From positions 186,001-250,000 of the forward strand of contig NZ_JACDIT010000003.1 of assembly GCF_013839445.1 (NCBI RefSeq): DNA of 64,000 bases, in the 5' to 3' direction. Below the pieces are notes generated by a model that searched no databases, had not been told where the DNA came from, and worked only from the letters and a program-made list of their open reading frames with translations. Origin of the DNA: Chthonobacter albigriseus (GTDB lineage Bacteria; Pseudomonadota; Alphaproteobacteria; Rhizobiales; Pleomorphomonadaceae). Shown piece by piece: positions 33,150-54,275 of the stretch. Position 1 is the stretch's first letter; the number at the start of each line of letters is the position of its first letter. The position numbers were made by a program, and so were the translations under genes.

Positions 33150-34024
33150 GCGCCCTGCCCGTCCCCACCGACGAACCGCAACTCGACCTCGTCTTCGGCG
33201 CGCATCCGCTGGCGGGCACCCGGCTGACCCGCCGCCGCACGCGCTACCCCTTCGTCCTGACCAGCGCCTTCCGGCTCGACGACCACCCCGCGGACATGCT
33301 GACCACCATCGTCCAGTCCGCAAGCGGGGCGATCCTCGGCGAAGACCGCCTCGTCCAGCGCATCACGGTCGGAGCGGGCGCGAACGCCCACATCACCACG
33401 CAGGCCGCCATGGCCGTCCACCGCATGCCGGCCGGCATGATCGCCGAGGAGAGCATCGCGATCGACGTGGCCGCCGGTGCGCTCGCCGAATACCTCCCCG
33501 CCCCGCGCATCCTCTTCCCCGATGCGGCCCTCCGCCAGCGCCTGATCCTGACGGTGGACCCCGCCGCCACCGCCGTTGTCGCGGATGGCTTCGTCGCCCA
33601 TGACCCGGACGCGACAAGCGCCGAAGCGGTGGGCGGACTGCCACGCGCGCACCGCCACTTCCGCCTCTACGCCGGCGAGATCGAGATCCGCCGCCCCGAC
33701 GGTGCGCTTCTCGCGGTCGACCGCTTCGAACTCGCCGCACCCGGCAACCGCTTCGGCCGCGCCGCGTCGCTCCGCGCGCACGGCTCGCTGATCGTGGCAA
33801 CGCCCGGCAGCACGGAATCGCACGCCGCCCTGGCTGCCGCCCTGGACGCCTCGCTCCTGGATATCGACTGCCTCGCAGCGGCCACGCTCCTGCCCCGCGG
33901 CGCTGGCGTCGCCCTCCGGATCGCCGCCACCGACGGTGCCCGCCTGCGCGCAGCCACCACCGCCGCCTGGACGGCCGCCCGCCTGATCCTAACCGGATCC
34001 GCCCCGAGCCGACGCCGATACTGA
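33146..34024 (+). CDS. ureD: Urease accessory protein UreD
   Basis: A 292-residue scaffold that binds apo-urease and receives nickel from UreG through UreF. Family features include [12 protein letters not shown] near residues 85-96, [21 protein letters not shown] and the C-terminal [14 protein letters not shown]. The start is GTG at 33146, four nt inside the end of ureG, so translation is coupled. Last gene of the cluster; no urea transporter follows, and the next gene converges. The order E-F-AB-C-G-D with ureD last differs from the common ureDABCEFG. Confidence 0.85.
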
Positions 34025-36751: not shown

Positions 36752-37777
36752 TCAGGCGATCCCCATCTCCATGGCCGGCGTCGTCGCCGCCGTGCGGAAG
36801 CAGCGGCTCATGTGGCCGTTGCCGTGGTCGTTCGGCTCGGGGAACGAGGCCAGACACTCGGGCTGGGCCAGCTTGCAGCGCGGTGCGAAGGAGCATCCGG
36901 GCGCCAGGAAGCGCATGTCCGGCGGGCTTCCCGGGATCGCGTCGATGTCCTGATCGCGGTTCTGCCCGTGCACGGTGGAGGCCATCAGCCCCAGCGTATA
37001 GGGGTGCTTCGGCTTCAGGAGCACGTCCTTCACGCTGCCGTACTCGATGATCCGGCCGGCGTACATCACCGCCACCTTGTCGGCGATCTGCGCCGCAACG
37101 CCGAGGTCGTGCGTGACGAAGATCACGCCCATCCCGAACTGCTCCTGCAGCTTGCGCAGCACGATCAGCACCTGGATCTGCACGGTGGCGTCGAGCGCCG
37201 TGGTGGGCTCGTCGGCCAAGAGCAGCGCCGGCCGGCAGGACAGCGCCACGGCCATCATCGCGCGCTGGCGCAGGCCGCCGGACAGCTCGTGCGGATAGGC
37301 TTTCAGCCGGCGCTCCGGCGACGGAACCTTCACCATCTGCATCAGCTCAAGCGCCCGCTCCATCGCCGCGGCCTTGCTGACACCCTCGTGCCGCATCACC
37401 GTCTCGGCGATCTGGTCGCCGATCGTGTAGACTGGGTCGAGCGCCGTCATCGGCTCCTGGAACACCATGGAGATGACACGGCCGCGCACCGCGTTCATCT
37501 CCTTGTCGGAGAGCGCCATGATGTCGTGGTCGCCCACCCGCATTGACCCGGTGATCCGGGTGCGCTTCTTCGGGTGCAGTTGCATCAGCGAGCGCATCGT
37601 CACGGACTTGCCGGAGCCGGACTCGCCGATGATGCACAGCACCTCACCGGGCATCACGTCGAAGCTGACGCCGTTCACCGCCCGGACGGTCGCTTCGCGG
37701 CTGACGAAGTTGACGTTGAGGTCACGCACCTCCACCAGCGGGCGCTTGGGCGGGGTCGGGTTGTTCGTATCGGCCAT
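36752..37777 (-). CDS. Oligopeptide/dipeptide-type ABC transporter ATPase (DppD-like)
   Basis: A 341-residue ATP-binding protein. Walker A is GESGSGKS near residues 42-49, the signature is LSGGLRQRAMMAVAL, and Walker B is ALLLADEPTTALD, followed by the H-loop VTHDLG. The C-terminal extension has the Cys-rich oligopeptide-transporter segment (PGCSFAPRCKLAQPEC), which often binds an Fe-S cluster. The start at 37777 has GAGG upstream. It is 8 nt after the DppF-like gene, and together they power the permease pair. Confidence 0.92.
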   Translation of the reverse strand: MADTNNPTPPKRPLVEVRDLNVNFVSREATVRAVNGVSFDVMPGEVLCIIGESGSGKSVTMRSLMQLHPKKRTRITGSMRVGDHDIMALSDKEMNAVRGRVISMVFQEPMTALDPVYTIGDQIAETVMRHEGVSKAAAMERALELMQMVKVPSPERRLKAYPHELSGGLRQRAMMAVALSCRPALLLADEPTTALDATVQIQVLIVLRKLQEQFGMGVIFVTHDLGVAAQIADKVAVMYAGRIIEYGSVKDVLLKPKHPYTLGLMASTVHGQNRDQDIDAIPGSPPDMRFLAPGCSFAPRCKLAQPECLASFPEPNDHGNGHMSRCFRTAATTPAMEMGIA

Positions 37778-37785
37778 GGGGCACC

Positions 37786-38919
37786 TCAAAGGGCGGCGGC
37801 GAGCGCGCGCGGAGCGGACGCTTCGACCGGCAGGGACTGGAGGGTGCGGCCGGCCATGCTGTGGCCCGCGACCGGGTTGGTGATGTGGCACGCGGCCACG
37901 TGCTCCGCCGGGTTTTCCGCGGCTTTTCCGAGCTTTGGCGTCTCGCGTTCGCAGATTGCTTCCGCATAGGGGCAGCGTGTGCGGAAGCGGCAGCCGGACG
38001 GCGGATTGATCGGGTTCGGGGGATCGCCGACCAGCGGCGGCGTCTCGATCCGGTGCTCCGGGTCGATCTCCAGCGCCGACTGCAGCAGGGCCCTTGTATA
38101 GGGGTGCTTCGGCGCGTTGTAGATCCGGTCCACCGGCCCGATCTCGACGACCTGGCCGAGATACATCACCAGCACGCGGTCTGAGATGTACTGCACCACG
38201 TGGAGGTCGTGGCTGATGAAGATGTAGGTGAGGTTCAGGTGGCGCTTCAGGTAGCCGAGCAGGTTGAGCACCTGCGCCTCCACCGACTTGTCCAGCGCCG
38301 AAACCGCCTCGTCCAGGATCAGCATGCGCGGATCGAGCGCCAGCGCCCGGGCGATGTTGACGCGCTGCTTCTGACCGCCCGAAAGCTCGTGCGGATAGCG
38401 CCCGCCGAACAGGTCGGGCCGGAGCCCCACCTTCTCCAGCAGCCCGCGCGCCTTGATCTTGGCTTCCGACGTGGCGACACCGTGCACCGTCGGCCCGTAG
38501 GCGATGGAGTCCACCACCGGCAGGCGCGGGTTCAGCGACGAGTAGCTGTCCTGGAACACCATCTGCATGTTCCGGCGCAACTCGCGCAGCGTGATGCCGT
38601 GCGGCTCGTCCACCGGGTCGCCGTCGAACACCAGCGTGCCCTTGTCGCGCGGCATCAGATGCATCAGCAGGCGGGCGAGCGTCGACTTTCCGCAGCCCGA
38701 TTCCCCGACGATACCCAGCGTCTCGCCCTTCATCACCGAGAACGACACGTCGTCCACGGCCTTCACCTCGGCGACCTTGCGGTTGAGCACGCCGCCGCGG
38801 ATCGGGAAGTACTTCTGCAGGTTCTGCACGATCAGGAGCGGCTGGGCCTTGCCGCCGCGGTCGTTGTTGTCGCCCGGCGGGACCGGTTGGAGGTGGCGCT
38901 CTGTGGGTTGCGCGGTCAT
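37786..38919 (-). CDS. Oligopeptide/dipeptide-type ABC transporter ATPase (DppF-like)
   Basis: A 377-residue ATP-binding protein. Walker A is GESGCGKS near residues 79-86; the signature LSGGQKQRVNIARAL and Walker B MLILDEAVSALD follow. The C-terminal Cys motif is SGCRFRTRCPYAEAIC. The frame stays open far upstream through the permease gene, but that extension is out-of-frame permease DNA. The ATG at 38919 lies 14 nt after the DppC-like stop. Confidence 0.92.
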   Translation of the reverse strand: MTAQPTERHLQPVPPGDNNDRGGKAQPLLIVQNLQKYFPIRGGVLNRKVAEVKAVDDVSFSVMKGETLGIVGESGCGKSTLARLLMHLMPRDKGTLVFDGDPVDEPHGITLRELRRNMQMVFQDSYSSLNPRLPVVDSIAYGPTVHGVATSEAKIKARGLLEKVGLRPDLFGGRYPHELSGGQKQRVNIARALALDPRMLILDEAVSALDKSVEAQVLNLLGYLKRHLNLTYIFISHDLHVVQYISDRVLVMYLGQVVEIGPVDRIYNAPKHPYTRALLQSALEIDPEHRIETPPLVGDPPNPINPPSGCRFRTRCPYAEAICERETPKLGKAAENPAEHVAACHITNPVAGHSMAGRTLQSLPVEASAPRALAAAL

Positions 38920-38933: not shown

Positions 38934-39830
38934 TCACGCTTTCACGTCCATGGCCTGGCGCAGGCCGTCGCTCACGAGGTTGAAGGCGACCGATGTGACC
39001 AGGATCGCCACGCCCGGCAGGGCGCAGACGAGTGGCTGCACATAGATCGACTGGCGGAGGGTGGAGAGCATCAGGCCCCAGTCCGGGGTCGGCGGCGCGA
39101 CGCCGAGACCGAGGAAGGAGAGGCCGGAGGCGAGCAGGATGGACGCCGACACCAGAGTCGAAGCGTAGACAAGCACCGGCGACATGACATTCACCAGCAC
39201 GTGCCTGAACAGGATGCTGGGCGTCTTCGCCCCGCTCGCCCTGGCGGCGTCGATGAAGTCCATCGTGCGCACCTGGGCCGTTGCCGTCTCCGCCACGCGG
39301 CAGATCGGCGGGATGAGCACGATCGTCAGCGTGATCATCTGGTTGACCATGCCGCTGCCCAGGCTGCCGGAGATCGCGACGGCCAGGAGCACCGACGGGA
39401 ACGCGAAGAACACGTCCATGGTCCGCATGATCGCGGTGTTGGTGCGCCCGCCGGCGAACCCGGCGAGCACGCCGAACAGGCCGCCGATGATCGTGGCGAA
39501 CAGCACCGGCGAGATTCCCATCAGCAGCGACGTGCGGCCGCCCCAGATGATGCGCGAGAGGATGTCGCGCCCCTGCTCGTCCGTGCCGAGAACGAAGTGC
39601 TTGAAACCCGGTGGCTTCAACCGCGACGCCATGCTCGACTTGTTTGGGTCGAACGGGGCGATCCAGGGCGCCAGGATGGCGATCAGGATGATCGCGATGA
39701 TCAGGCCCAGGAAGAACAGTGTCACATAGTCGTAGCGCAGCTTGTTCCACACGTTGCCCCAGTAGCCGCGGACGACAGGCTTCTGCGGGGCTGGGATGAG
39801 GGCGGCGTTTTCGGCCGAGATGTCGGTCAT
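38934..39830 (-). CDS. Oligopeptide/dipeptide-type ABC transporter permease (DppC-like)
   Basis: A 298-residue inner-membrane permease. The N-terminal transmembrane helix (YVTLFFLGLIIAIILIAILAPW) and the periplasmic segment HFVLGTDEQGRDILSRIIWG are standard for DppC/OppC. The EAA-loop region contains ARASGAKTPSILFRHVLVN. It forms a heterodimer with the DppB-like protein. The binding protein at 40901-42505 sets specificity. Confidence 0.92.
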   Translation of the reverse strand: MTDISAENAALIPAPQKPVVRGYWGNVWNKLRYDYVTLFFLGLIIAIILIAILAPWIAPFDPNKSSMASRLKPPGFKHFVLGTDEQGRDILSRIIWGGRTSLLMGISPVLFATIIGGLFGVLAGFAGGRTNTAIMRTMDVFFAFPSVLLAVAISGSLGSGMVNQMITLTIVLIPPICRVAETATAQVRTMDFIDAARASGAKTPSILFRHVLVNVMSPVLVYASTLVSASILLASGLSFLGLGVAPPTPDWGLMLSTLRQSIYVQPLVCALPGVAILVTSVAFNLVSDGLRQAMDVKA

Positions 39831-39848: not shown

Positions 39849-40805
39849 TCAGGTGCGCTTGATGCGCGGATCGACGAGGGTCTGCAGGAGGTCGACGATC
39901 AGGTTGATGAGGACGAAGGCCATCGCCAGCACCAGGATCGTGCCCTGCAGCAGGGGGATGTCGCGGGTCAGGATCGCGGTGTTCAGCACGAACCCGGTTC
40001 CCGGCCAGGTGAAGATCGTCTCCACCAGGATCGATCCGCCCACGAGGTAGCCGAGCTGCAGGCCCAGCATGGCGAGGATCTGCGGCGCCCCGTTCCAGAT
40101 CGCGTGGACGATGATCTGCCATTCGCTGAGGCCCTTGGCCCTGAGCGTCTGGATGAAGTCCTGCCCCAGGATCTCCGCCAAAGTTGAGCGCGTGGTCCGC
40201 ATCAGGATGCCGAGCGGCGTCAGCGTCATCGCGATGATCGGCAGGATGGCGTACTGCAGGCTCTCCCATTCCAGGAAGCTGAAGTCCTCCGATCCGCCCT
40301 CGCCCATGCCCGTCGCGGGCAGCCAGCCGAGGTTGACCGAAAACACGATCACCAGCACCACGCCGAGCCAGAAGGTCGGCACGCTGATGCCAAGAACGGC
40401 GATGGCGGTGGAGAGCCGGTCGGCCCAGCTGCCGACCTTGATGGCGGCGATGATGCCGAGCACCAGCGCGATGCCCATCGCCAGCACCACCGAGATGACG
40501 GCGATGGTGATGGTGTTGCCGAACGCCCGCATCACCTCGTCGATCACCGGCCGGTTGGTCTGGATCGACTTGCCGAGATCGCCGATCAGCGCCTTGCCGA
40601 GCCAGACGACGTATTGCACGGGGATCGGCTCATCCAGGCCGTAGGCCTTCTTGATGGCGATCTTGTCCGCTTCGCTCGCATCCGGCGGCAGCAGGCTCTG
40701 GATGGGATCGCCGGGAGCCAGATAGACGAGGGCGAAGCAGATGATCGTGACGCCGAGCCCGATCGGGATCGTGAGGAACAGACGGCGCGCAACGTAAAGC
40801 CACAT
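39849..40805 (-). CDS. Oligopeptide/dipeptide-type ABC transporter permease (DppB-like)
   Basis: A 318-residue inner-membrane permease beginning MWLYVARRLFLTIPIGLGVT, the classic DppB start, with FALVYLAPGDP, TNRPVIDEV and the EAA-loop segment LRAKGLSEWQIIVHAIWN. About six helices. It lies 95 nt after the binding-protein gene and 18 nt before the DppC-like gene, in the usual A-B-C-F-D-like order. Confidence 0.92.
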   Translation of the reverse strand: MWLYVARRLFLTIPIGLGVTIICFALVYLAPGDPIQSLLPPDASEADKIAIKKAYGLDEPIPVQYVVWLGKALIGDLGKSIQTNRPVIDEVMRAFGNTITIAVISVVLAMGIALVLGIIAAIKVGSWADRLSTAIAVLGISVPTFWLGVVLVIVFSVNLGWLPATGMGEGGSEDFSFLEWESLQYAILPIIAMTLTPLGILMRTTRSTLAEILGQDFIQTLRAKGLSEWQIIVHAIWNGAPQILAMLGLQLGYLVGGSILVETIFTWPGTGFVLNTAILTRDIPLLQGTILVLAMAFVLINLIVDLLQTLVDPRIKRT

Positions 40806-40900: not shown

Positions 40901-42505
40901 TCACTCCACCACTTCGATCGGCGTCAGGTCCTGGAACCAGCTCTGGGCCTGCACGAAGCCCTTCAGCTTCGGCGACAGGGCGCGCGGGTTCAGGTCGTGG
41001 GCGATGAAGATCTCGTAGGCCTGGTCGACCAGCCGCTCGTGCATCTTCTGGATCAGCGCCAGGCGCTTCTCCGCATCGAACTCGTTCAGCGCGGCCTCAC
41101 CGAGGGCGTCCGTCTCCGGGTCGGAGAAGAAGCCCCAGTTCAGGCCGTTCGGCGGCTGGTAGCGGGTCATGGAGTTCTTCATGATCGCCTGAACCGGCTC
41201 GATCGACGACAGGCTGACGTTGACGCCGTGATACTGCGGGAAGGCCTTGGCGCCGCCGAAGTACACGCCGAGCAGCGCGTTCCAGTCGATCGGGTCGAGC
41301 TGCACCTCGAAGCCGACGGCCTCCAGCTGCTCCTTGACCAGTTCGTTCATCGGCAGCGGCTGCATCTGGCCCGAGCCGGAGGTGGAGATCGCGATCGTCA
41401 CCTGGCAGGGCTTGCAGCCGGCTTCCTCGAGCAGCGCCGACGCCTTCTCCGGGTCGTACTCGTACTTGACCGGATTGCCGTAGTAGGTCTGCGACGGGAT
41501 GAACTTGGCATAGCCCTCCATCGCGATGCCCTGCAGCATCTCCACCATCTCCGCGCGATTGATCGCGTAGTTGGCGGCGCGGCGGACGCGGACGTCGTCG
41601 AAGGGAGGCATGTCGACGCGCACCTGGTAGTCCCAGTTGTGCGGGTACGGCACCAGGACGATGTTCATGCCCGCGTCCTTGAGGCGGGGGATCGTGTCGG
41701 GCGACGGCGCCTCCACGAAGTCCACCTGTCCGGCGAGCAGAGCGGCGGCGCGGGTCGTCGCCTCCGGCATTGGCAGCAGCACGAGGCGGTCGTGCTTGGG
41801 TACGCGCTTCGGGTTCCAGTATTCGGCGTTCTTCACCAGTTCCAGGCGCTCGCGCGGAACCACCTTGTCGAACTTGTACGGACCGGTGCCCGACGGCTTC
41901 TTGGCGAATTCGTCGTAGTTGTTGTTCACTGCCTGCATGGCGCACGGCGAGATCTGGAAGTAGCCGGCCAGCTGGTAGGCGATCAGCGAGTCCACGATCT
42001 TCGTCGTCAGCGAGATCGTGTAGTCGTCGATCTTGGCCATCGACTCCACGTTCGAGATCGTCCAGCCCTGCATGGTCTGGTGGCGGACGTTGTGCTGCGG
42101 CGCCTTGTCGTCCTTGATGCGGGCGAAGTTCCAGAGCGCCGCGTCCGCGTTCCAGTCGCAGCCGTCATGGAATTTCACGCCCTGGCGAAGCTTGAAGATC
42201 CAGCGCTTGTGGTCGGCCGGATCGATCTCCCAGCTCTCCGCCAGACCCGGGGTGATGTCGGCGGCCTTCTCCGAGGACGACAGGTCCCAGTTGACCAGGC
42301 TGTCGTAGATCGTGAAGCCGGCGAAGCGGAACCCCTCGTAGCCCTGGTCCGGCGCACCGGTCCAGTCGGGGATGTCCGCTGCCGTCATGGCGACGCGCAC
42401 CTGCGTTTCCGCGGTAGCCTCGCCGGCTCCCAGCGCGAATGTCGTCAGGGCGAGCGTCAGGGCCGTGATCGTCGGCCGGGCTAGGCTTGGTCGGCTACGT
42501 TTCAT
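40901..42505 (-). CDS. Family 5 extracellular solute-binding protein
   Basis: A 534-residue periplasmic binding protein (SBP_bac_5, as in peptide, nickel and glutathione importers). A Sec signal occupies residues 1-~32 (ALTLALTTFALGAGEATA-E). The mature protein has GLAESWEIDPADHKRWIFKL, KFHDGCDWNADA and the C-terminal family pattern. GGAGGTGTTTC precedes the ATG. No lipobox Cys is visible, so it is soluble. With amidase genes on both sides, the cargo may be an amide-bearing compound or small peptide, but this is inference. Confidence 0.9.
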   Translation of the reverse strand: MKRSRPSLARPTITALTLALTTFALGAGEATAETQVRVAMTAADIPDWTGAPDQGYEGFRFAGFTIYDSLVNWDLSSSEKAADITPGLAESWEIDPADHKRWIFKLRQGVKFHDGCDWNADAALWNFARIKDDKAPQHNVRHQTMQGWTISNVESMAKIDDYTISLTTKIVDSLIAYQLAGYFQISPCAMQAVNNNYDEFAKKPSGTGPYKFDKVVPRERLELVKNAEYWNPKRVPKHDRLVLLPMPEATTRAAALLAGQVDFVEAPSPDTIPRLKDAGMNIVLVPYPHNWDYQVRVDMPPFDDVRVRRAANYAINRAEMVEMLQGIAMEGYAKFIPSQTYYGNPVKYEYDPEKASALLEEAGCKPCQVTIAISTSGSGQMQPLPMNELVKEQLEAVGFEVQLDPIDWNALLGVYFGGAKAFPQYHGVNVSLSSIEPVQAIMKNSMTRYQPPNGLNWGFFSDPETDALGEAALNEFDAEKRLALIQKMHERLVDQAYEIFIAHDLNPRALSPKLKGFVQAQSWFQDLTPIEVVE

Positions 42506-42883: not shown

Positions 42884-43093
42884 ATGCCCGATAAGGCGTT
42901 CGATCAGGAGATCACGGCGCTGCTTGCGGCGGCAGGTCTGCAGGTTCCGCCCGACTTGGCGGCGGGCGTCTACTCCGAGGCGCGCGACCTGCGCCGCATC
43001 ACCAGCCTCCTGCGCGGGCCTCGCACCGCCGCGGCCGAGCCGTCCAACATCTTCAGCCTCGCCCGCTACGCCCCCGCCGGAGACGCGAAATGA
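42884..43093 (+). CDS. DUF4089/AtzG-like small subunit of an amidase
   Basis: A 69-residue protein of the DUF4089 type: FDQEITALLAAAGLQVPPDL near residues 6-25, then a helix ending FSLARYAPAGDAK. In the cyanuric-acid pathway the small AtzG protein forms a complex with amidase AtzE and is needed for its stability. Here the gene ends in an ATGA overlap with an AtzE-like amidase gene, the same linkage. AAAGG precedes the ATG. It is probably a chaperone-like or GatC-like partner with no catalytic role. Confidence 0.75.
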   Translation: MPDKAFDQEITALLAAAGLQVPPDLAAGVYSEARDLRRITSLLRGPRTAAAEPSNIFSLARYAPAGDAK

Positions 43094-44502
43094 CCGCACT
43101 GAACGAACTCTCCATCGCCGAGGCCGGGCGCAAGCTGCGCGCCGGCGAGATCACCTCCACTGCCCTCACCCAGGCCTCGTTGAGCCGGATCGCGGCGCTG
43201 GAACCGACCCTGGATGCTTTCGTGACCGTCACGCGCGAGCGGGCGCTTGCGGATGCCGTGCGGGCCGACGCCGAACTCGCTGCCGGCGTCGATCGCGGCC
43301 CGCTGCACGGCATCCCCTATGCTTTGAAGGACATCTACGCCACTGCTGGCATCCGAACGACCAATCACTCGCGCCTCTTCGCCGACCAGATCCCGGCGGA
43401 GGACTGCACCGTGGCAGCCAAGTTGGCGACCGGCGGCGGGGTGCTTGTCGGCAAGGCGGGCACTTTCGAGTTCGCCATCGGCGGCCCGAGCTTCGACCTG
43501 ATCACCCCGCCGGCCCGCAATCCGTGGGACACGTCGCGCTCCACCAGCGGCTCTTCGTCCGGCTCGGCGGCCGCGGTCGCTGCCGGCATGGTCCGCCTGG
43601 CCATGGGCTCCGACACCGGGGGCTCGATCCGCGGCCCGGCCGCCCACTGCGGCACCGTCGGGCTCAAGGCCACCTACGGCCGCGTCTCCCGCCGCGGCAT
43701 CTTTCCGCTGTCCTTCACGCTCGACCACGCCGGCCCGCTTACCTGGTCGGTGGAGGATACCGCCCTCACTATGCAGGTGATCGCCGGCCACGACCCGCTG
43801 GACCCGGCAAGCGCCGACGTCCCGGTGCCCGATTTCACCGCAGGCATCGGCCAGGATCTCGCCGGCCTGAAGATCGGCTACGCCCGCTCCTTCTTCGCCG
43901 CCAACCCGATCACCTCGGCGGAGGTGCTGGCGGCCCTCGACAAGGCGGCCGAGACGATCGCCGGCCTCGGCGCCGAGGTGGTCGAAGTCGAACTGCCCAC
44001 CTACGAGCTCTTCGAGGCCTGCGGCCGCGTCATCCTGATCGGGGAGGCCTACGCCATCCACGAGCAGGACCTGAAGTCCCGCCCCTTCGCCTACGGTCGC
44101 TACGCCTACCAGCGCTTCGCCCCGGGTGCCGTCCTCAGCGCGGCCGACATGGTCCAGGCCTTCCGCCTGCGCGCCGAACTCACCTCCATCGTCAACGACC
44201 GCGTGTTCAAGTCCTGCGACGCGATGATCACCGCCTCCGCCCTCACCGAGGCGGCGCCCTTCGCCAACTTCGCGCACGACGTCCAGCGCTGGGTCGGCAT
44301 GTACACGATCCCGTTCAACGTCACGGGCAACCCGGCGCTGAGCCTGCCCACCGGCTTCTCCGCCGGCGGGCTGCCGCTCGGCATGCAGATCGTCGGCAAG
44401 CCCTTCGACGAGGCCACCACGCTGCGTATCGGCGCCGCCTACGAGGCCGCCGCCGGCTGGACGAGCATCCGCCCGACGCTGGAATCCGCCATCGCCGCCT
44501 GA
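43090..44502 (+). CDS. AtzE-like amidase (amidase-signature family)
   Basis: A 470-residue amidase with triad K80 (PYALKDIY), S155 (SGSSSGS) and S179 (SDTGGSIRGPA); spacing is normal. The pairing with a DUF4089 gene is that of AtzE, the 1-carboxybiuret hydrolase, although AtzE-like proteins with other substrates are common in Rhizobiales. No atzD (cyanuric acid hydrolase) or atzF (allophanate hydrolase) is in the window. Alternatives: a GatA-like or ureido/amide hydrolase. It overlaps the small-subunit gene by 4 nt and precedes the next amidase by 33 nt. Confidence 0.8.
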   Translation: MTALNELSIAEAGRKLRAGEITSTALTQASLSRIAALEPTLDAFVTVTRERALADAVRADAELAAGVDRGPLHGIPYALKDIYATAGIRTTNHSRLFADQIPAEDCTVAAKLATGGGVLVGKAGTFEFAIGGPSFDLITPPARNPWDTSRSTSGSSSGSAAAVAAGMVRLAMGSDTGGSIRGPAAHCGTVGLKATYGRVSRRGIFPLSFTLDHAGPLTWSVEDTALTMQVIAGHDPLDPASADVPVPDFTAGIGQDLAGLKIGYARSFFAANPITSAEVLAALDKAAETIAGLGAEVVEVELPTYELFEACGRVILIGEAYAIHEQDLKSRPFAYGRYAYQRFAPGAVLSAADMVQAFRLRAELTSIVNDRVFKSCDAMITASALTEAAPFANFAHDVQRWVGMYTIPFNVTGNPALSLPTGFSAGGLPLGMQIVGKPFDEATTLRIGAAYEAAAGWTSIRPTLESAIAA

Positions 44503-44535
44503 TCGGGCACTTGAAGAGACCGGGGGAAACGAACC

Positions 44536-45939
44536 ATGGAAGACCTGCACTACCAGTCGCTGGTCGACGTCGCTGGCGCCATCCGGCGCCGCGACGTCTC
44601 GCCCGTCGAGGTGACCGGCGCACTCCTCGACCGCATCGAGGCGCTCGACGGCGACCTCAACAGCTACATCACCGTCACCGCCGACATCGCCATGGATCAG
44701 GCCAAAAAGGCCGAGGCCGAGATCATGTCCGGCCGCTATCGCGGCCCGATGCACGGCATTCCGATCGGCATCAAGGATCTCTGCTTCACCAAGGGTGTGA
44801 AGACCACCTTCGGCATGCGCGTGCTGAAGGACTTCGTTCCGAACCACGACGGCACGGTCGCCAAGCGCCTCAACGACGCCGGTGCGGTCATGCTGGGCAA
44901 GCTGCACCTGCACGAAGGCGCCTTCGGCGAGCACCATCGCGACCTCGGCAACCCGCTGAACCCCTGGAACAAGGACTACTGGCCCGGCGGCTCGTCCTCC
45001 GGATCCGGCGTCGCCACCGCCGCCGGCCTCTGCTACGCCTCGATCGGCACCGACACCGGCGGCTCCATCCGCTTCCCCTCGCATGCCTGCGGCGTCACCG
45101 GCGTCAAGGTCACCTGGGGCCGCGTCAGCCGCTACGGCGCCTTCCCGCTGGCCGAAAGCCTCGACACCATCGGCCCGATGGCCCGGTCCGCAGCCGACTG
45201 CGCGGCCATGCTCGGCGCCTTCGCCGGCTACGACCCCAACGACCCGACCAGCCTCACGGCTCCGGTGCCCGACTATCTCGCCGAGATCGACGGCGTCTTC
45301 GGCGCCCGCGGCATGCGCATCGGCGTCGACATGAGCTACATCGGCGAGGGCAACGACGCCGAGACGGTTGCGCTGATCGAAGCCGCCGCCGAGGTGTTCC
45401 AGTCGCTCGGCGCCGAGCTGAAGCCCTTCCGCATGCCGGACGTCACCGCCGTCGCCAACGGCCAGCTCGCCTATTGCCAGGTGGAGTCCGCCACCTTCCA
45501 CGAGGACGCCTACAAGGCCGCCCCCGGCGACTTCGGCAAGCTGCTCGGCGAAGCCGTCGCCGCCGGCCTCGTCTACGACCCCGTGAAATACGCCGGACAC
45601 CAGATCGACCGCGACATCTTCAAGGGCAAGCTCGCCCGCACCTTCCTCGACGTCGACGCGATCATCGTGCCCGTCTTCCCCGGCGTCGGCGTCCGCTACG
45701 ACGAGTTCGACAGCTTCATGGACAACGTGTCGGCCTTCCTGCGCTACACCGGCCCCTTCAACATGGCTGGCACGCCCACGGTCACCCTCCCCTGCGGCTT
45801 CTCCAGCCTCGGCCTTCCCGTCGGCTTCCAGCTCGTCGGCCCGCACCTCTCCGAGGCGAAGCTGCTCCGCGCAGCGCACGCCTACCAGCAGGCGACCGAC
45901 TGGCACCTGAAGCGCCCGCCCATCCCGTTCAACGCCTGA
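44536..45939 (+). CDS. Amidase-signature enzyme, first tandem copy
   Basis: A 467-residue amidase with K80 (IGIKDLCF), S153 (GGSSSGSG) and S177 (TDTGGSIRFPS). It begins MEDLHYQSLVDVAGAI and ends QQATDWHLKRPPIPFNA, which it shares with the next gene. It belongs to a different subgroup from the AtzE-like protein, with the GSSSGSG and GRVSRYG segments. Probably cytoplasmic, third gene of the operon; substrate unknown. Nucleotide identity with 45950-47344 is high in patches. Confidence 0.82.
   Translation: MEDLHYQSLVDVAGAIRRRDVSPVEVTGALLDRIEALDGDLNSYITVTADIAMDQAKKAEAEIMSGRYRGPMHGIPIGIKDLCFTKGVKTTFGMRVLKDFVPNHDGTVAKRLNDAGAVMLGKLHLHEGAFGEHHRDLGNPLNPWNKDYWPGGSSSGSGVATAAGLCYASIGTDTGGSIRFPSHACGVTGVKVTWGRVSRYGAFPLAESLDTIGPMARSAADCAAMLGAFAGYDPNDPTSLTAPVPDYLAEIDGVFGARGMRIGVDMSYIGEGNDAETVALIEAAAEVFQSLGAELKPFRMPDVTAVANGQLAYCQVESATFHEDAYKAAPGDFGKLLGEAVAAGLVYDPVKYAGHQIDRDIFKGKLARTFLDVDAIIVPVFPGVGVRYDEFDSFMDNVSAFLRYTGPFNMAGTPTVTLPCGFSSLGLPVGFQLVGPHLSEAKLLRAAHAYQQATDWHLKRPPIPFNA
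45877..45920 (+). repeat. 44-nt identical repeat in the first tandem amidase
   Basis: This stretch, coding HAYQQATDWHLKRPP, is identical base for base to 47294-47337 in the next amidase. Exact identity over 44 nt between two otherwise diverged genes suggests recent gene conversion or a strongly constrained C-terminus. Confidence 0.8.
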
Positions 45940-45949
45940 GGCCCGCGCC

Positions 45950-47344
45950 ATGACCGACCTCTGCACCCGATCGCTCGCCGAGACCGCCGCCGACATCAAG
46001 TCGGGCGCGCTCTCGCCCGTCGAACTCACCCGCGCCATGCTGGCCCGGATCGAAGCCGTCGATCCCGGCCTCAACAGCTACCTGACCGTCACGCCGGACC
46101 TCGCCCTGAAGCAGGCCGCCAAGGCCGAGGCTGAGATCCGCGCCGGCCAGTACCGCGGCTCCATGCACGGCATTCCGATCGCGCTGAAGGACCTTTGCAA
46201 CACCAAGGGCATCACCACGTCGGCCGGCATGTCGATCCACCGCGGCTTCGTGCCGGAGGCGGACGGCACCATCGTCGGCCGCCTGGCCGCCGCCGGCGCC
46301 GTGCTTCTCGGCAAGCTCCACATGACCGAAGGTGCCACCCTGGAGCACCACCCGGAGTTTCCGCGCCCCACCAATCCGTGGCGTGCCGACCTCTGGACCG
46401 GCGTCTCGTCCTCCGGATCAGGCGTCGCCACCGCCGCCGGCCTCTGCTTTGCCTCGATCGGCTCGGACACAGGCGGCTCGATCCGCTTTCCCTCCGCCAG
46501 CTGCTCGGTCACCGGCCTGAAGCCCACATGGGGCCGCGTCAGCCGCGCCGGCAGCTTCGATCTCGCCGCCTCCTACGACACCCTCGGCCCGATGGCCCGC
46601 TCGGCAGCCGATTGTGCCGCCATGCTCACGGCCATCGCCGGCTGGGACCCGCTCGACGGCACGACGCTCTCCGCGCCCGTGCCCGATTATGAGGCGGCGC
46701 TAGCCGGCGTCTTCGGACTGCGTGGCCTGCGCATCGGCGTCGACTGGGCCTACATCGCGGGCGGCGTCACGGCTGAGGTGCTCGCCGCCACCAAGGCCGC
46801 GGTGGACACGCTCGCCGACCTCGGCGCCGAGATCGTCGACATCGCCTTCCCCGACACCGCCCCTCTCTTCGAGCGGCTGCTCGATGCGCAGCTCGCCGAG
46901 ATCGCCTACGCCCACCGGGAAACCTACCCGTCCAAGGCCGAGCACTATGGCAAGTGGCTGAAGGCCGGTATCGACGGCGGCATCGCCGCCAATCCGCTCA
47001 CCCTCGCCCGCAACGCCTTCGAGCGCGATCGCTACAAGGGCCTCCTCGCCCAGACCTTCGCCGGCGTCGACGCCATCGTGATGGCCGTCAACAAGGCCGG
47101 CACGCCGACCTGGGACGAAGTAACGGACGTGGTGGAAAGCGACATGGCTTCCTTCATGCGCTTCACTGCAGTGTTCAACGCCACCGGCAGCCCGACCGTC
47201 ACGTCCCCCTGCGGCTTCACCGCCGACGGCCGCCCGATCGGGTTCCAGCTGGTCGGCCGGCACCTCTCCGAGGATCTCCTCCTGGCCGCCTCCCACGCCT
47301 ACCAGCAGGCGACCGACTGGCACCTGAAGCGCCCGCCGGTCTGA
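45950..47344 (+). CDS. Amidase-signature enzyme, second tandem copy
   Basis: A 464-residue amidase with K80 (IALKDLCN), S153 (SSSGSG region) and S177 (SDTGGSIRFPS). It follows the previous amidase by only 10 nt and has almost the same C-terminus (YQQATDWHLKRPPV), so the two arose by tandem duplication. Middle regions differ (e.g. DWAYIAGGVTAEVLAATKAAVD), which suggests different amide substrates. It is the last gene before the strong terminator at 47381. Confidence 0.82.
   Translation: MTDLCTRSLAETAADIKSGALSPVELTRAMLARIEAVDPGLNSYLTVTPDLALKQAAKAEAEIRAGQYRGSMHGIPIALKDLCNTKGITTSAGMSIHRGFVPEADGTIVGRLAAAGAVLLGKLHMTEGATLEHHPEFPRPTNPWRADLWTGVSSSGSGVATAAGLCFASIGSDTGGSIRFPSASCSVTGLKPTWGRVSRAGSFDLAASYDTLGPMARSAADCAAMLTAIAGWDPLDGTTLSAPVPDYEAALAGVFGLRGLRIGVDWAYIAGGVTAEVLAATKAAVDTLADLGAEIVDIAFPDTAPLFERLLDAQLAEIAYAHRETYPSKAEHYGKWLKAGIDGGIAANPLTLARNAFERDRYKGLLAQTFAGVDAIVMAVNKAGTPTWDEVTDVVESDMASFMRFTAVFNATGSPTVTSPCGFTADGRPIGFQLVGRHLSEDLLLAASHAYQQATDWHLKRPPV
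47294..47337 (+). repeat. 44-nt identical repeat in the second tandem amidase
   Basis: Second copy of the exact repeat described at 45877-45920. The copies are 1417 nt apart in direct orientation, so recombination between them would remove one amidase gene. Confidence 0.8.
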
Positions 47345-47380: not shown

Positions 47381-47412
47381 ACCCCGCTGACGACGTCAGC
47401 GGGGTCTTTTTT
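47381..47412 (+). terminator. Rho-independent terminator of the amidase operon
   Basis: ACCCCGCTGAC (47381-47391) and GTCAGCGGGGT (47395-47405) form a perfect 11-bp stem with a 3-nt loop, followed by C and six T. It lies 36 nt after the last amidase. This is the clearest intrinsic terminator in the window and ends the 42884-47344 operon. The opposite strand lacks a T-tract, so the converging amidase gene relies on other signals. Confidence 0.92.
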
Positions 47413-47482: not shown

Positions 47483-48868
47483 TCAGAGCACCGGGTTCTT
47501 GGTGTGCCAGTCCGTCACCGTCTGGAAGGTATGCCCGGCCTTCAAGAGCAGCGCCTCCTCGAACGGCCGCCCGATCAGCTGGAAGCCGATCGGAATGCCG
47601 CGGCTGTCGAAGCCGCCCTGCATGATCACGCTCGGGCTGCCGGTGAAGTTGAACACGCCCGTGAACTTGAGGTAGTCGCCGAAGTCGCCCTTCATCACCT
47701 CGTCCCAGCCGGCCAGCGTCGGGATCTTGTAGGGCATCATCGGGCAGATCAGCACGTCGACGATCTCGAACAGCGCCGCCAGGCTGCCCTTGAACTCGTT
47801 GCGGAAGATCTGCGCCTTGCCCAGGCTAAAGGCGTCGACCTTCCGCCCGGTCTCGATGAACCCGGCGAGTTCGGGGCCGTACTCGTCCTTGCGCGACGGA
47901 TAGGTCGCCTCGTGGGCGATCGCGGTCTCAACCGCGCAAAGATCCGTCCACGCCTGCGCCATCCCGGTGGTGTCCGGGAACTTCACCGGCACGATCGTCG
48001 CGCCAAGCGCGATCAGGATGTCGATCGCCTCCTTCAGCACGCCCGCCACCTCCGGGTCGGTGCCGCCGTAGACCCACGTCTCGTCCAGTCCGATCTTCAG
48101 CCCCCGGATCCCGCCGGACAGACCGGAGAGATAGTCCGGCACCGGCACCTTGGCCGCGGTCGGATCGTTGGGATCGGCGCCCGCGATCACACCCAGCACG
48201 GCCGCAGTATCGGCCACGGTCCGCGTCATCGGACCGAGGTGGTCGAGCGACTCCGACAGGTCGCAGACGCCCGCCCGGCTGATCCGCCCCCACGTCGGCT
48301 TCATGCCCGAGAGCCCGCAGGCGCCCGTCGGAAAGCGGATCGAGCCGCCGGTGTCCGAGCCGAGCGAGGCATAGCAGAAGCCCGCCGCTGTGGCCGCACC
48401 GGACCCGGACGACGACGCGCCGGTCCAGTAGTCCGTGTTCCACGGATTGCGCGGCGTCGGCATCTTCGGATGATGCGCGCCGAAGGCGCCCTCGGTCATC
48501 GTCAGCTTGCCCAGCATGATGGCGCCGGCCATCTCCAGCCGCTCCACCGCCGTCGCGTTGCTGTTCGCCATCCGGTTCTTGTGGATGTACATCCCCGCCG
48601 CGGTCGGCGCGTAGGTGGTGTCGCAGAGGTCCTTCACAGCGATCGGCACCCCGTGCAGCGGCCCGCGCCAGAAGCCGGCGGCGATCTCGGCCTCCGCCTT
48701 CTTGGCCTGGCTCATCGCCCGCTCCGGAAGCACGGTGGTATAGCTCTTCAGGCTGCCGTCGTGCGCCTCGATCCGCTTCAGGATCGCCTCGGTCACCTCC
48801 ACCGGCGAGACGGCGCCCGACTTGATCGACTTCGAGACATCCAGAAGGCTCGTGTAGTGCAGGTCCAT
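47483..48868 (-). CDS. Amidase-signature enzyme
   Basis: A 461-residue amidase related to the two tandem copies (start MDLHYTSLLDVSKSIKSG) with K79 (IAVKDLCD), S152 (GASSSGSG) and S176 (SDTGGSIRFPTGA). GGAGGACAGCC precedes the ATG. It is alone on the minus strand, divergent from the AmiC-like gene, so the two may share a control region. Sequence similarity suggests it acts on a similar amide to the tandem amidases. Confidence 0.82.
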   Translation of the reverse strand: MDLHYTSLLDVSKSIKSGAVSPVEVTEAILKRIEAHDGSLKSYTTVLPERAMSQAKKAEAEIAAGFWRGPLHGVPIAVKDLCDTTYAPTAAGMYIHKNRMANSNATAVERLEMAGAIMLGKLTMTEGAFGAHHPKMPTPRNPWNTDYWTGASSSGSGAATAAGFCYASLGSDTGGSIRFPTGACGLSGMKPTWGRISRAGVCDLSESLDHLGPMTRTVADTAAVLGVIAGADPNDPTAAKVPVPDYLSGLSGGIRGLKIGLDETWVYGGTDPEVAGVLKEAIDILIALGATIVPVKFPDTTGMAQAWTDLCAVETAIAHEATYPSRKDEYGPELAGFIETGRKVDAFSLGKAQIFRNEFKGSLAALFEIVDVLICPMMPYKIPTLAGWDEVMKGDFGDYLKFTGVFNFTGSPSVIMQGGFDSRGIPIGFQLIGRPFEEALLLKAGHTFQTVTDWHTKNPVL

Positions 48869-49281: not shown

Positions 49282-50319
49282 ATGAAGATCGGTGTGCTGA
49301 TCTCGCGAACTGGTCCCGCCGGCATCTGGGGACCATCCTCGGAGGCATGCGCCATTCTGGCTGCAGCGGAGATCAACGCCGCCGGCGGCGTGATGGGCCG
49401 GAACATCGAGTTGACGGTCGCCGATCCCGGCTGGACCGAAACCGAGGCCGTCGGCGTCGCCGCCGACATGGTCGACATCGCCGGGGTCGACGCGGTCGTC
49501 GGCATGCATCCGAGCAACGTCCGTACCGCCATCCGCAACCGCCTCGCCGGCCGGGTGCCCTACTTCTACACGCCCCAGTACGAGGGCGGCGAAGCCGCCC
49601 CGACCACCGTCGCCATCGGCGCCACCGACGGCAGCCTGATGCGCTCCACCCTCCCCTGGTTCGTCGACAACAGGAAAGCGCGCCGCTTCTGCCTGGTCGC
49701 CAACGACTATGTCTGGCCCCAGCGGGCGATGGACACGGCGAGTGCGATCATCAACCGCGCCGGCGGACGGGTGGTGGGCGAGATGCAGATCCCCTTCGGT
49801 GCCGACCACACGGAAAGCATCGACGACATCCGCCGTCTCAAGCCCGACGTGCTGGTCATCTTCCTCTTGGGCGAGGAGCTTGTGCGCTTCAACCGGACCT
49901 TCGGCGAGTCCGGCCTGTCGTCCCACATCCTGCGCTTTGCCCTCGGCTTCGACGAGAACGTGCTCTACGGCATTGGGTCGGAGGCGAGCGAAAACCTTTA
50001 CGGCGCCACCACCTTCGTCTCGTCGGCCCGCACCGCGGAGACCGCCCGGCTGCTGGAGCTCTACCACAGCCTTTATGGCGAGCACGCGCCGCAGGTCTCC
50101 GTCTTCGGCCAGTCCTCCTACGAAGGGATCCATCTCGCCGCCGCGGTGGCGAAGGCCGCCGGCAGCACGGGCCGCCGCGCCGGAGCCGAGTTCCTGGCGC
50201 GCTCTCGCAACCGGGATCGCATCCGCGACCTCATCCCGCCCGCGATCGGCCGCAGCGCGCTTTCGACACACTTCTTCGCCGCCGATGGCCTCGACCTTCA
50301 ACTGTTGAGCACGCGATGA
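49282..50319 (+). CDS. AmiC-like amide-binding protein, cytoplasmic
   Basis: A 345-residue protein of the type I periplasmic-binding fold (urea/amide/branched-chain amino acid group). It starts directly with MKIGVLISRTGPAGIWGPSS, with no signal peptide, as in Pseudomonas AmiC, the cytoplasmic amide sensor of the amidase operon. Segments such as TPQYEGGEAAPTTVAIGATD and QSSYEGIHLAAAVAKA are family-like. AmiC normally controls the antiterminator AmiR; no amiR adjoins here, but a MarR gene follows. It could instead be a transporter component whose start was lost, though no signal-like sequence lies upstream. Confidence 0.75.
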   Translation: MKIGVLISRTGPAGIWGPSSEACAILAAAEINAAGGVMGRNIELTVADPGWTETEAVGVAADMVDIAGVDAVVGMHPSNVRTAIRNRLAGRVPYFYTPQYEGGEAAPTTVAIGATDGSLMRSTLPWFVDNRKARRFCLVANDYVWPQRAMDTASAIINRAGGRVVGEMQIPFGADHTESIDDIRRLKPDVLVIFLLGEELVRFNRTFGESGLSSHILRFALGFDENVLYGIGSEASENLYGATTFVSSARTAETARLLELYHSLYGEHAPQVSVFGQSSYEGIHLAAAVAKAAGSTGRRAGAEFLARSRNRDRIRDLIPPAIGRSALSTHFFAADGLDLQLLSTR

Positions 50320-50628: not shown

Positions 50629-51051
50629 ATGGCCGAGAGCCGTTTGAGTGACCAACTCGCCTACATCATCGCGACGGTGAACAAGCAGCTCGAGGACGAA
50701 CTGCAGGAGCGCCTTCGACCGGCCGGCGTGCCCATCGAGCAGTTGCGCATCCTGGAGGTGCTCAACAGCGCCAACGGCCGCCCGATGGGCGAGCTCGCAA
50801 CCAAGGCGCTGATCGAGCCGACCACGCTGACCAAGATCGTCGACCGCATGGTGTCCGACGGGCTCGTCTTCCGTGCGCCCGACCCGTCCGATCGCCGTCG
50901 TGTCCTGATCCGTATCGCCCCCGGCGGTAAGACGCTGTTCCGCCGCCTCGACCGGATCACCACCGCGCAGGAGGAACGTCTCCAGCGCCAGATCCCGGCC
51001 GCCAAGCTCGACGAACTCCGCCGTCTCCTCACCGAGATCATGGAAGGCTGA
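50629..51051 (+). CDS. MarR-family transcriptional regulator
   Basis: A 140-residue winged-helix regulator. The DNA-binding part is LRILEVLNSANGRPMGELATKALIEPTTLTKIVDRM (residues ~40-75), then the wing DPSDRRRVLIRIAPGGK. The ATG at 50629 with AGGAG upstream was chosen; an in-frame ATG at 50587 has its AAGG too close. It probably responds to a small aromatic or amide ligand and may control nearby amidase, FmdA or asparaginase-like genes. The target is inferred from position only. Confidence 0.85.
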   Translation: MAESRLSDQLAYIIATVNKQLEDELQERLRPAGVPIEQLRILEVLNSANGRPMGELATKALIEPTTLTKIVDRMVSDGLVFRAPDPSDRRRVLIRIAPGGKTLFRRLDRITTAQEERLQRQIPAAKLDELRRLLTEIMEG

Positions 51052-51161: not shown

Positions 51162-52856
51162 TCAGTGCGTGTCGAACACCGCCTGGTAGCGCGCCACGGC
51201 GGCTCGCGTCGCCGCCTTCTCCGCCTCGGTCGGGTTGGCCGGATCGGCCGCGATCGGCAGGCTGCCGAACTTCAAGAGGCACGCCATCAGCAGCAGCCGC
51301 GCCTTGGTCGCCGTCAGGTTCGAACCGGCGATGAAATACGGGTGCGGATCGGCAAATCCCTCCGGGCTGCCGCGTCCCACGCGCACCGACGGCAGGCCCG
51401 CGAAGATCGCCCGGTGCAGGATTCCCTGCCGCAGCTCCGACGTCGTCGAGCCGTAGGGCACCAATCCCTCCAGCACGAACCCGCCCAGCCGCCCCAGCGA
51501 AAGCTTGTGCGCCACCAAAGCCAGAAGGTCGCCTTCCGCGCCAGGATCGTCGCCGAATTCCTCGGCGGTGTAGCTGCCGTCCTTGGTGATCGAGACCGAC
51601 GGGATCGCGTCGGCCAGCAGCCGGCCGTCGGCGTCCTTCACCGCCACGGTCACCCCCGTCACCACCCCGTCGACCACCTTGGCCGCCGTCACGCTGGTGG
51701 GCAGGCTGGTCAGCTTCACATCAGAAAGGTAGGTGTGCTTGTAGGCCGGCAGGTACATCAGGAACACCGCGCCCGTATGGCTCGCCTGCCCCAGGATGCC
51801 GCCATGCCCGCCCGTTGCCACATAGCCGCCGGGACGCGCGTCCACCTTCATCACCTCGCGCGCGGCGAAGAACTGCTGCTCCTGGATCACCACCATACCC
51901 GCGCGGTTGTGCCCGTTTCCGTCCGCCCAGATGCCGGAGTGGATGTAGCGCACGCTGTCCACGATGTTCGCGGGCCCGTCCGCACTCAGCTGCCCTTGCG
52001 GCCGCTGGGCGGCGTTGCCGCAGATCGGCAGCTTGGTGTCGATCAGGAGGTTGAACCAGTAGGCGGTCTCCTCGATCTGCGGGCTTCCTTGCGTCCAGAT
52101 GATGCCGTCGTAGAGGCCGCTGTCGGCCACCGCCTGAAGGGCGTTGGTGGCCCGCGCCAACGCCGGCCGCGGCGGCGACTGCGCCAGGTGGAACGGCTTG
52201 TAGGCGAAGAAGTCGTGCCCCATACGCTCCGGCGGAATCTCGCCATCGCCCACGTCAGCGCGCTCGGCGGCCGTTAGTCCCTTGGTGAAGCCGCCCGGCG
52301 GCAGGCCACGGTAGAACGACACCTCCGCCATCGACGAGATCACGTTGGCGACGCCGTCCATCGACACCGACAGCCGGTCGATCTCCTCGAAGCTGCGCGA
52401 GCCGTCCGGGAAGAAGCCTTGCCGCGCCAGCGCGCTGCCCGGCGCCACGCACTCTTCCTCCCAAGGCGAGCCGTCCTTCTGCACCGCCATATAGGGCAGC
52501 GGATAGAGCCCATCCGCCGGATCGAGCCGCACCTCGTAGACCGCCTTGTCGTCGGCCGACATCCGCTCGCGGCTGAACACGCCGTCCGCGCCGATATAGC
52601 CGTCCGGCGGCCCGTAGAGATCGGCCGCGTCCTTCTCCAGGGGGTGCGCGCTGAACTGCTCCACGTAGACCGTCGCGGGCGCCGCCAGCCGTTGCGGCCG
52701 CAGCGCGTCGAAGGCGGCCGGCGAGCCGTCCGGGTTGGGCCGCGGGTCGAGCCCGTGGCGAGTCCGCGCCTTGTTGGAGGTCACCAGCGGCGGCGTGTTC
52801 TGGATCGTGGCGGTCGGGCCGGCCACATGCGCGATGCGCACCTTGGGTCTGGTCAT
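51162..52856 (-). CDS. Long asparaginase-like protein with altered motifs
   Basis: A 564-residue protein of the asparaginase fold. The N-terminus (RIAHVAGPTATIQNTP) corresponds to the usual TGGTI block. DGIIWTQGSPQIEETAYWF aligns with the second block (HGTDTLEETA), but the Thr-Asp pair is replaced by Pro-Gln. The third part, PICGNAAQRPQGQLSADGPANI, is well kept. The protein is far longer than typical enzymes (~330), with an extra N-terminal insert (residues ~45-220). It lies 23 nt after fmdA, so probably cotranscribed. Amidohydrolase activity is likely but unproven; the substrate may not be Asn. Confidence 0.7.
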   Translation of the reverse strand: MTRPKVRIAHVAGPTATIQNTPPLVTSNKARTRHGLDPRPNPDGSPAAFDALRPQRLAAPATVYVEQFSAHPLEKDAADLYGPPDGYIGADGVFSRERMSADDKAVYEVRLDPADGLYPLPYMAVQKDGSPWEEECVAPGSALARQGFFPDGSRSFEEIDRLSVSMDGVANVISSMAEVSFYRGLPPGGFTKGLTAAERADVGDGEIPPERMGHDFFAYKPFHLAQSPPRPALARATNALQAVADSGLYDGIIWTQGSPQIEETAYWFNLLIDTKLPICGNAAQRPQGQLSADGPANIVDSVRYIHSGIWADGNGHNRAGMVVIQEQQFFAAREVMKVDARPGGYVATGGHGGILGQASHTGAVFLMYLPAYKHTYLSDVKLTSLPTSVTAAKVVDGVVTGVTVAVKDADGRLLADAIPSVSITKDGSYTAEEFGDDPGAEGDLLALVAHKLSLGRLGGFVLEGLVPYGSTTSELRQGILHRAIFAGLPSVRVGRGSPEGFADPHPYFIAGSNLTATKARLLLMACLLKFGSLPIAADPANPTEAEKAATRAAVARYQAVFDTH

Positions 52857-54230: not shown

Positions 54231-54275
54231 GGCGCCGAAGAACGCATGTCTCTTCCTCGCGATCGGAGTTCATCC

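Follow-up and report, generated by a model that had tools for sequence, protein, structure and literature searches.

A 64,000-nucleotide stretch of the Chthonobacter albigriseus contig NZ_JACDIT010000003.1 (positions 186,001 to 250,000 of the forward strand; hereafter, the window) contains an operon in which the gene for a small protein (SP) overlaps that of an amidase-signature enzyme (A1) and precedes two further amidase genes (A2 and A3). By profile comparison, SP is a remote relative of AtzG, and it is most likely a structural subunit of A1. We place the SP-A1 pair, with a probability of roughly 0.6, within a pathway of uptake and stepwise deamidation encoded by the surrounding gene island. 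Directly observed are the gene content and its conservation, the distant relationship between the SP and AtzG profiles, and the split of A1 and A2 between clades.

SP and its association with A1

The closest relatives of A1 were taken as the best 80 of 531 matches, which represent 79 distinct loci. These were scanned with an SP model whose training set comprised 35 sequences of previously collected loci (E-values at Z=100; the training set may overlap the tested loci, at least L141, L142, and L154). An SP-like protein was present at 75/79 loci, located upstream of the amidase in 65, downstream in 7, and fused to the C terminus of that amidase in 3. Five of the seven downstream SPs are fused to a second amidase, bringing the C-terminal amidase-SP fusions to eight, and further fusions of this kind were detected beyond the 79-locus set. 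Matches had E<1e-3 in 74 of the 75 cases (L174 at 3.6e-3), and at L194 SP lies 261 nucleotides (nt) upstream of A1. As controls for adjacency, the opposite strand gave 2/79 matches and the same strand 2.8 to 5.6 kb upstream gave 4/57, two of which (L165 and L194) resemble real SPs. Thirteen plasmids bear an A1 relative, and SP accompanied it in all six that were examined (E 4.4e-7 to 5.1e-19). Two genomes contain two pairs apiece, and in these the SP and A1 paralogs co-segregate: SP identity is 54 to 58% within a type and 27 to 38% across types, and A1 identity is 69 to 71% and 55 to 57%, respectively.

Because SP-like proteins adjoin 75/79 A1 relatives, eight as fusions, SP is most likely the structural subunit of A1, and the two very probably form a complex. 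SP would be a noncatalytic subunit of the GatC/AtzG type that folds over A1 and is required for its stability or activity. PMC6219798 describes AtzG as noncatalytic and AtzE as insoluble without AtzG. Separately, three loci from a more distant amidase group (L034, L036, and L037) carry tandem amidase pairs with an SP-like C-terminal domain on each member.

At E≤1, none of the Pfam and NCBIfam models, PF13318 included, matches SP. The initial annotation had called it a DUF4089 protein, DUF4089 presumably being the former name of PF13318; this fails as a database assignment, although a distant kinship with AtzG is recovered by profiles. The profile of SP and its unfused homologs matched that of true AtzG (hhalign) at 92.4% (E 5.1e-7, 55 columns), against a maximum of 0.97% among 100 column-shuffled controls. 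Among the 49 sequences of the SP alignment, that of the window being one of them, 3 matched PF13318 at E≤0.01, the best at 0.006. AlphaFold2 predicts a helical hairpin (residues 4 to 16 and 23 to 43) with an extended tail (predicted local distance difference test score [pLDDT], 86; predicted template modeling score, 0.57). A Foldseek search of 350,542 PDB chains with this model ranked 6c62_C first of 30 listed matches, and from the entry's title ("An unexpected vestigial protein complex reveals the evolutionary origins of an s-triazine catabolic enzyme") and the chain's length we take it to be AtzG. Nine further matches among the 30 listed are GatCAB, GATA-GATC, or transamidosome entries, whose matched chains we assume to be GatC. 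Realignment of the Foldseek matches with VIA also placed 6c62_C first (Z 4.9; 65/66 residues; root mean square deviation, 7.3), and this chain and those of GatCAB and transamidosomes filled ranks 1 to 9 of the 13 rows listed (Z 4.9 to 3.1). In a profile search of PDB sequences, the SP alignment (49 rows) matched no chain of a related protein, the best E being 0.15 and the names unrelated. By PF02686, the genome has a single GatC, on contig C18. Recognition of the family is patchy, because NCBI names the Roseomonas marmotae homolog "AtzG-like protein" and the Rhizobium tumorigenes homolog "hypothetical protein."

Several results weigh against this assignment. SP matched the GatC profile at 5 to 10%, vs a shuffle maximum of 7.8%, and AtzG itself matched GatC at only 0.22% in the same test. 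No single Foldseek E-value was significant (best 0.59), and a VIA Z of 4.9 falls within the range that the tool flags as a possible common arrangement. SP was missing from 4/79 A1 loci (L181, L188, L200, and L201). The model of a natural fusion (L192, six-row alignment) was unusable at a mean pLDDT of 45.5. The cluster is also sporadic, as BLAST found SP in 0/19 other members of the family (G001 to G019).

More widely, BLAST detected SP in 4/199 related genomes, and a four-row profile detected it in at least 16/385 genomes of the class (own genome included in both counts); the latter is a lower bound, as at most the best 16 candidates per genome were scored. SP-bearing hosts include Proteobacteria, Streptomyces, Myxococcus, and, on a plasmid, Planktothrix; of two Dehalococcoidia, one gave a weak match and the other none. 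Judged from these matches, the amidase clade putatively served by SP is found in Proteobacteria, Actinomycetota, Myxococcota, and Cyanobacteriota, and weakly in Chloroflexota.

Amidase clades and the genuine Atz genes

Classified by its sequence, A1 is not AtzE but belongs to a separate clade. Its best NCBIfam models are those of the AtzE family, with scores far below the cut-offs (NF006631, 304.5 vs 461; TIGR02715, 296.9 vs 425.75), and it scores 300.2 vs 481.1 with the GatA model TIGR00132. In a tree of 62 selected rows, a subset of the loci, A1 and its relatives (31 rows, 99/99), AtzE (11 rows, 100/100), and GatA (6 rows, 100/100) formed separate clades, and A2, A3, a fourth amidase (A4), and their relatives formed a clade of their own (11/12 rows, 100/98; L065 fell outside). 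The branching order among the main clades was not resolved in this tree. A1 to A4 each pair with their own counterpart at L126, a locus in a metagenome-assembled genome labeled Rhizobium sp., and therefore the duplications are older than that split. The catalytic Lys/Ser/Ser motif is kept in A1 to A4 and in a fifth amidase (A0), aligned with the genome's AtzE, AtzF, and GatA. At another locus (L048, 10060 to 11310), a protein of the allantoate amidohydrolase/carbamoylase M20 family that exceeds the cut-offs of both TIGR01879 and NF006769 is encoded between two amidases of the A1 type, hinting at N-carbamoyl substrates there.

The genome does encode a genuine Atz set. On contig C14 at about 176 to 185 kb (locus L006), 1 to 10 kb to the left of the window, we found genes for AtzG (PF13318, 65.8 bits; the only PF13318 match in the genome, about 47 kb upstream of SP), AtzE (670.4 vs a cut-off of 461), the allophanate hydrolase AtzF (842.7 vs 487), and the biuret hydrolase BiuH (422.1 vs 370). 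A second Dpp-type importer lies further to the left, and a second BiuH-like protein beside the genuine AtzG scores 236 vs 370. The SP-A1 operon is thus not an isolated fragment of the cyanuric acid pathway. SP-A1 is also not identical with the AtzG/AtzE pair of that pathway, which lies elsewhere in the genome. The reported absence of AtzF is right for the operon but not for the contig, where a real AtzF lies about 47 kb upstream (AtzD was not searched for).

A related proposal is that SP-A1 is a paralogous 1-carboxybiuret hydrolase, equivalent to AtzEG, that feeds biuret and allophanate metabolism. It draws on a gene architecture identical to that of atzG-atzE, on AtzE as the top NCBIfam model of A1, and on the BiuH and AtzF encoded in the genome. 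We regard it as quite unlikely, given the subthreshold score of A1, the separate and fully supported AtzE clade (100/100), and the bona fide AtzG-AtzE pair already present 47 kb away; furthermore, a cysteine hydrolase of the island is far below the BiuH cut-off, and the operon and island amidases are below the NCBIfam allophanate hydrolase cut-offs.

The coordinates, strand, and lengths initially assigned to the operon are all correct. SP and A1 overlap by ATGA, and gaps of 33 nt (A1-A2) and 10 nt (A2-A3) account for the 43 nt reported. A1, A2, and A3 match PF01425 at 334 to 338 bits (cut-off, 27); A2 is 36% identical to A1 and 56% to A3, and A4 is 50 to 51% identical to A2 and A3. The closing terminator bears out its description as perfect, with 11 pairs and a folding energy of −21.5 kcal/mol (z −4.55; 0/200 shuffles as good). 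A sigma-70 promoter scan detected no promoter. A4 and A0 are additional to the three amidases first noted.

It had further been suggested that the set may form a multi-amidase complex; in such a case, SP would be common to all three operon amidases. The single gene run with its short gaps and one terminator would be in keeping with such a complex, as would the retention of the SP-A1-A2-A3 order in L126 and on two Rhizobium plasmids. A2-like matches at E≤1e-100 occurred in 8/100 related genomes (own included); one (G087) was matched via an A1-type amidase with its own SP and was not used as A2 context, and another (G021, L065), outside the A2 clade, was examined as a short locus. No credible SP was found near A2 relatives in five contexts of 12 to 20 kb (L069 to L073) or at six short loci (L060 to L065). 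The SP-model matches there were stretches of 18 to 39 residues (best E 0.0045) inside open reading frames (ORFs) of 327 to 491 codons, without the EP motif, and were counted as chance. Because A2 relatives elsewhere lack a credible SP, a general operon subunit is disfavored; moreover, A2 to A4 form a clade separate from A1, and across the 79 A1 loci SP accompanies A1, most of these loci having no neighboring gene of the A2 or A3 type. The multi-amidase complex is therefore highly improbable.

The surrounding island and its second urease

The operon is embedded in a gene island at about 28 to 54 kb of the window (Table 1).

Table 1. Features of the SP-A1 operon and its surroundings, in window coordinates. 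Start sites of the importer substrate-binding protein (SBP), both ATPases, the EamA permease, the MarR regulator, and A4 were set by tblastn with annotated proteins.
Feature	Coordinates	Strand	Basis
Isochorismatase-family cysteine hydrolase	28170..28877	+	54% to R. tumorigenes cluster gene
UreE (match 28946-29389) and UreF (29388-30056)	28946..30056	+	tblastn, annotated Pleomorphomonas proteins, 70% and 65%
UreAB, fused urease gamma-beta subunit	30091..30783	+	PF00547, PF00699
Divergent second UreC	30796..32502	+	PF00449
UreG (aligned 32553-33146) and UreD (33167-34021)	32553..34021	+	90% and 58% to annotated Pleomorphomonas proteins
A0, fifth amidase, NF005565 (PRK07235) type	34163..35674	-	676 bits vs cut-off 545
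EamA/DMT-family permease	35739..36683	-	PF00892
Importer ATPase 2	36752..37777	-	Homologs
Importer ATPase 1	37786..38919	-	ABC_tran and oligo_HPY in longer ORF
Importer permease 2	38934..39830	-	ORF; homologs
Importer permease 1	39849..40805	-	ORF; homologs beside SP-A1 elsewhere
Importer SBP, Dpp/Opp type, divergent from SP	40901..42505	-	PF00496, 254 bits
SP, 69 amino acids (aa), AtzG/GatC-like small protein, putative A1 structural subunit	42884..43093	+	
A1, 470 aa, amidase-signature enzyme, putative SP partner	43090..44502	+	PF01425, 338 bits
A2, 467 aa, amidase	44536..45939	+	PF01425
A3, 464 aa, amidase, sister of A2 in tree	45950..47344	+	PF01425
Intrinsic terminator ending SP-A1-A2-A3	47381..47405	+	11-bp stem, 3-nt loop, T-run
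A4, amidase of A2/A3 clade, convergent with operon	47483..48868	-	PF01425, 349.6 bits
AmiC/UrtA-like binding protein, candidate cytosolic amide/urea sensor	49282..50319	+	PF13458/PF13433
MarR-family regulator	50629..51051	+	PF01047; also in L126, L211, L209
Divergent 564-aa asparaginase-like protein	51162..52856	-	PF00710, 43.9 bits; 70-75% homologs in L126, L211, L209
FmdA/AmdA-family (acetamidase/formamidase-like) protein	52880..53821	-	PF03069, 100.7 bits; solved acetamidases matched

The divergent Dpp-type importer that had been linked to the operon is real, and an SBP homolog occurs near A1 in 32/79 loci. Scored as best BLAST matches (E≤1e-8) over a distance of about 10.5 kb, which many contigs do not reach, the other neighbors of the 79 A1 loci were the two ATPases (28 and 27 loci), the permeases (23 and 17), the cysteine hydrolase (16), another asparaginase (10), the EamA permease (10), and the FmdA-like protein (8). 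The SBP satisfies the broad PF00496 model and scores 116 vs 1005 with the DppA equivalog NF043070; its relatives include proteins that bind dipeptide, haem, and agrocinopine. The cysteine hydrolase is below both the RutB and the BiuH cut-offs, and the FmdA/AmdA-like protein is far under the FmdA equivalog cut-off. The AmiC-like protein matches AmiC (1pea) at E 1.4e-15 and, as its best solved match, the ligand-binding receptor 8tg1 at 3.9e-29; judged by eye, it has no obvious signal peptide. In the intergenic region between the SBP and SP genes, TTATCTGA occurs twice (42643 to 42650 and 42818 to 42825). It was found in 1/11 other loci tested (L126; 0.15 expected), there within a longer shared AT-rich string, and not in the other 10.

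In L126, the importer, SP-A1-A2-A3, A4, AmiC-like, MarR, asparaginase-like, and FmdA-like genes are collinear with the window as far as the contig extends, which starts within the importer genes. Nine proteins compared between the two are 64 to 79% identical, and their dN/dS ratios of 0.13 to 0.23, with dS near saturation, indicate that purifying selection acts on each of the nine genes. Most of the island set is also present, in rearranged order, on R. tumorigenes pRt932 and a Rhizobium rhododendri plasmid, which hold urease, asparaginase-like, acetamidase-like, importer, SP, A1, A2, A3, MarR, AmiC-like, and cysteine hydrolase genes plus one more amidase, which is of a different type. Because the two plasmids hardly differ in this region (UreC, 98.8% identical), they count as one independent case. 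At L211, an amidase (24423 to 25994) that appeared AtzF-like by BLAST was rejected, scoring 131 to 151 vs allophanate hydrolase cut-offs of 487 to 511. The GC content of 34.1 to 54.1 kb (0.676, vs 0.680 in the rest of the window) is uninformative on horizontal transfer.

The island urease is the second of two in the genome by urease alpha genes, the other being on contig C1. Its UreC shares 51% identity with the other UreC, 70% with R. tumorigenes UreC, and 84.7% with a UreC encoded on a Pleomorphomonas plasmid. The UreA, UreB, and UreC Pfam domains and the His/Lys/Asp nickel-ligand motifs are present. The flap reads MLAHIMN, vs MVCHHLD in the other UreC and MICHQLN in R. tumorigenes, and a stretch close to it also differs (NEFGF; DSQAMGRV in R. 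tumorigenes). Similar ureases were examined in six other records (L222, G384, G393, G053, G484, and G561). An A0-type amidase lay near the urease in three (the Pleomorphomonas plasmid, G393, and G053), of which two also have a 40% identical AmiC-like protein; the match in G393 (27.5%) resembles an exported binding protein. Neither gene was found in the other three records, two of which are 5.3-kb contigs.

Because the importer, hydrolases of mixed folds, a urease, and the AmiC-like protein occur together, the gene set suggests that a small ureide or polyamide is completely deamidated. The importer would take up a small compound that is rich in nitrogen and bears multiple amide or ureido groups, and hydrolases of various folds (A1 with SP, A2, A3, A4, A0, and the cysteine hydrolase, asparaginase-like, and FmdA/AmdA-like proteins) would cleave it stepwise, SP-A1 contributing a single step of the dedicated pathway. 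The second, divergent urease would split urea or a urea-like end product, and the AmiC-like sensor and MarR regulator would control the island. The nitrogen source is probably of the ureide or polyamide type; the chance that urea is an end product is about even. The amide- or biuret-like substrate proposed initially is plausible and is strengthened by the presence in the island of the second urease and the AmiC-like, cysteine hydrolase, FmdA/AmdA-like, and asparaginase-like proteins, most of which also occur on the two Rhizobium plasmids.

Three findings run counter to such a pathway: A4, A0, and the EamA permease were not found in the stretches read of the two Rhizobium plasmids; a UreC-like gene, UreC being the sole urease gene in the reference set, was near A1 in 0/79 loci; and the urease link comes from the window and the two Rhizobium plasmids, which closely resemble each other. 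The second of these would suit an island that imports short amidated or dipeptide-like compounds, such as peptide amides or N-acyl amides, beside an unrelated urease, as would the placement of the importer in the peptide family SBP_bac_5. This alternative deserves some weight but is doubtful, given that two other records, closely similar to each other, also have the divergent urease within this cluster and that A0-type amidases accompany similar ureases in three further ones, two with the AmiC-like protein. More specifically, SP and its relatives could represent a third, unmodeled GatC/AtzG branch, and SP-A1 could belong to a pathway for ureides or compounds resembling slow-release urea (methylene-urea type) in which the urease acts on a substituted urea instead of urea, a combination that we consider unlikely. 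A connection of the island urease with methylenediurease is a lead. Jahns 1998 is said to be the discovery paper of that enzyme. PMC5852125 cites Jahns 1998, and PMC4186839 lists methylenediurease as a nickel enzyme.

Elsewhere in the window, 54246 to 56471 encodes a 741-aa protein with an esterase/phytase-like domain (PF13449), and genes at 13286 to 16457 resemble, by eye, a pqqBCDE set.

Comparison with known systems

Among the open-access papers retrieved, neither the SP-A1 pair nor the island was described in any title or abstract beginning, subscription journals being outside this scope; "GatC" in passages of PMC3676327 is a company name only. The SP family largely escapes the tested Pfam and NCBIfam models, and seemingly single-subunit amidases of this clade may therefore fail when expressed alone. 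The natural fusions offer a direct handle for structural and activity work, and the island, with its second divergent urease, is a testable gene set for the catabolism of nitrogen-rich compounds.

As in AmiC-regulated aliphatic amidase systems, an AmiC-like binding protein lies beside amidases; unlike in those, a MarR gene adjoins, no AmiR was present in the stretch read, and the amidases are of the amidase-signature type. The TrtA-BiuH-AtzF triuret and biuret pathway, as outlined in PMC7948467, likewise has ureido compounds processed in series by amidases and a cysteine hydrolase of the isochorismatase fold, but the island cysteine hydrolase is far under the BiuH and RutB cut-offs, and TrtA was compared by description. 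GatCAB resembles SP-A1 in that its GatA is homologous to A1 and that SP has GatCAB and transamidosome chains among its best fold matches; however, A1 scores 300 vs the GatA cut-off of 481, the GatA clade is separate, and the only GatC is on C18.

The atzG-atzE-atzH clusters without atzD and atzF, as described in PMC6219798, combine AtzG/AtzE homologs with AtzH and resemble the present case in that the pairs lie near ABC transporters and hydrolases of nitrogen compounds, outside cyanuric acid degradation; they differ in the surrounding genes and in that SP-A1 does not group with the AtzE clade that comprises this genome's AtzE and related sequences. AtzG-AtzE itself has a similar layout, with a small gene directly upstream of, and overlapping, an amidase-signature gene, and SP shows remote profile similarity to AtzG and has 6c62_C as its best, albeit not significant, fold match. 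In contrast to that pair, SP misses PF13318, A1 is outside the AtzE clade and cut-offs, and the operon holds two further amidases. That catabolic amidases can recruit a GatC-like subunit was previously known from AtzG-AtzE; SP-A1 would be a second, apparently broader case.

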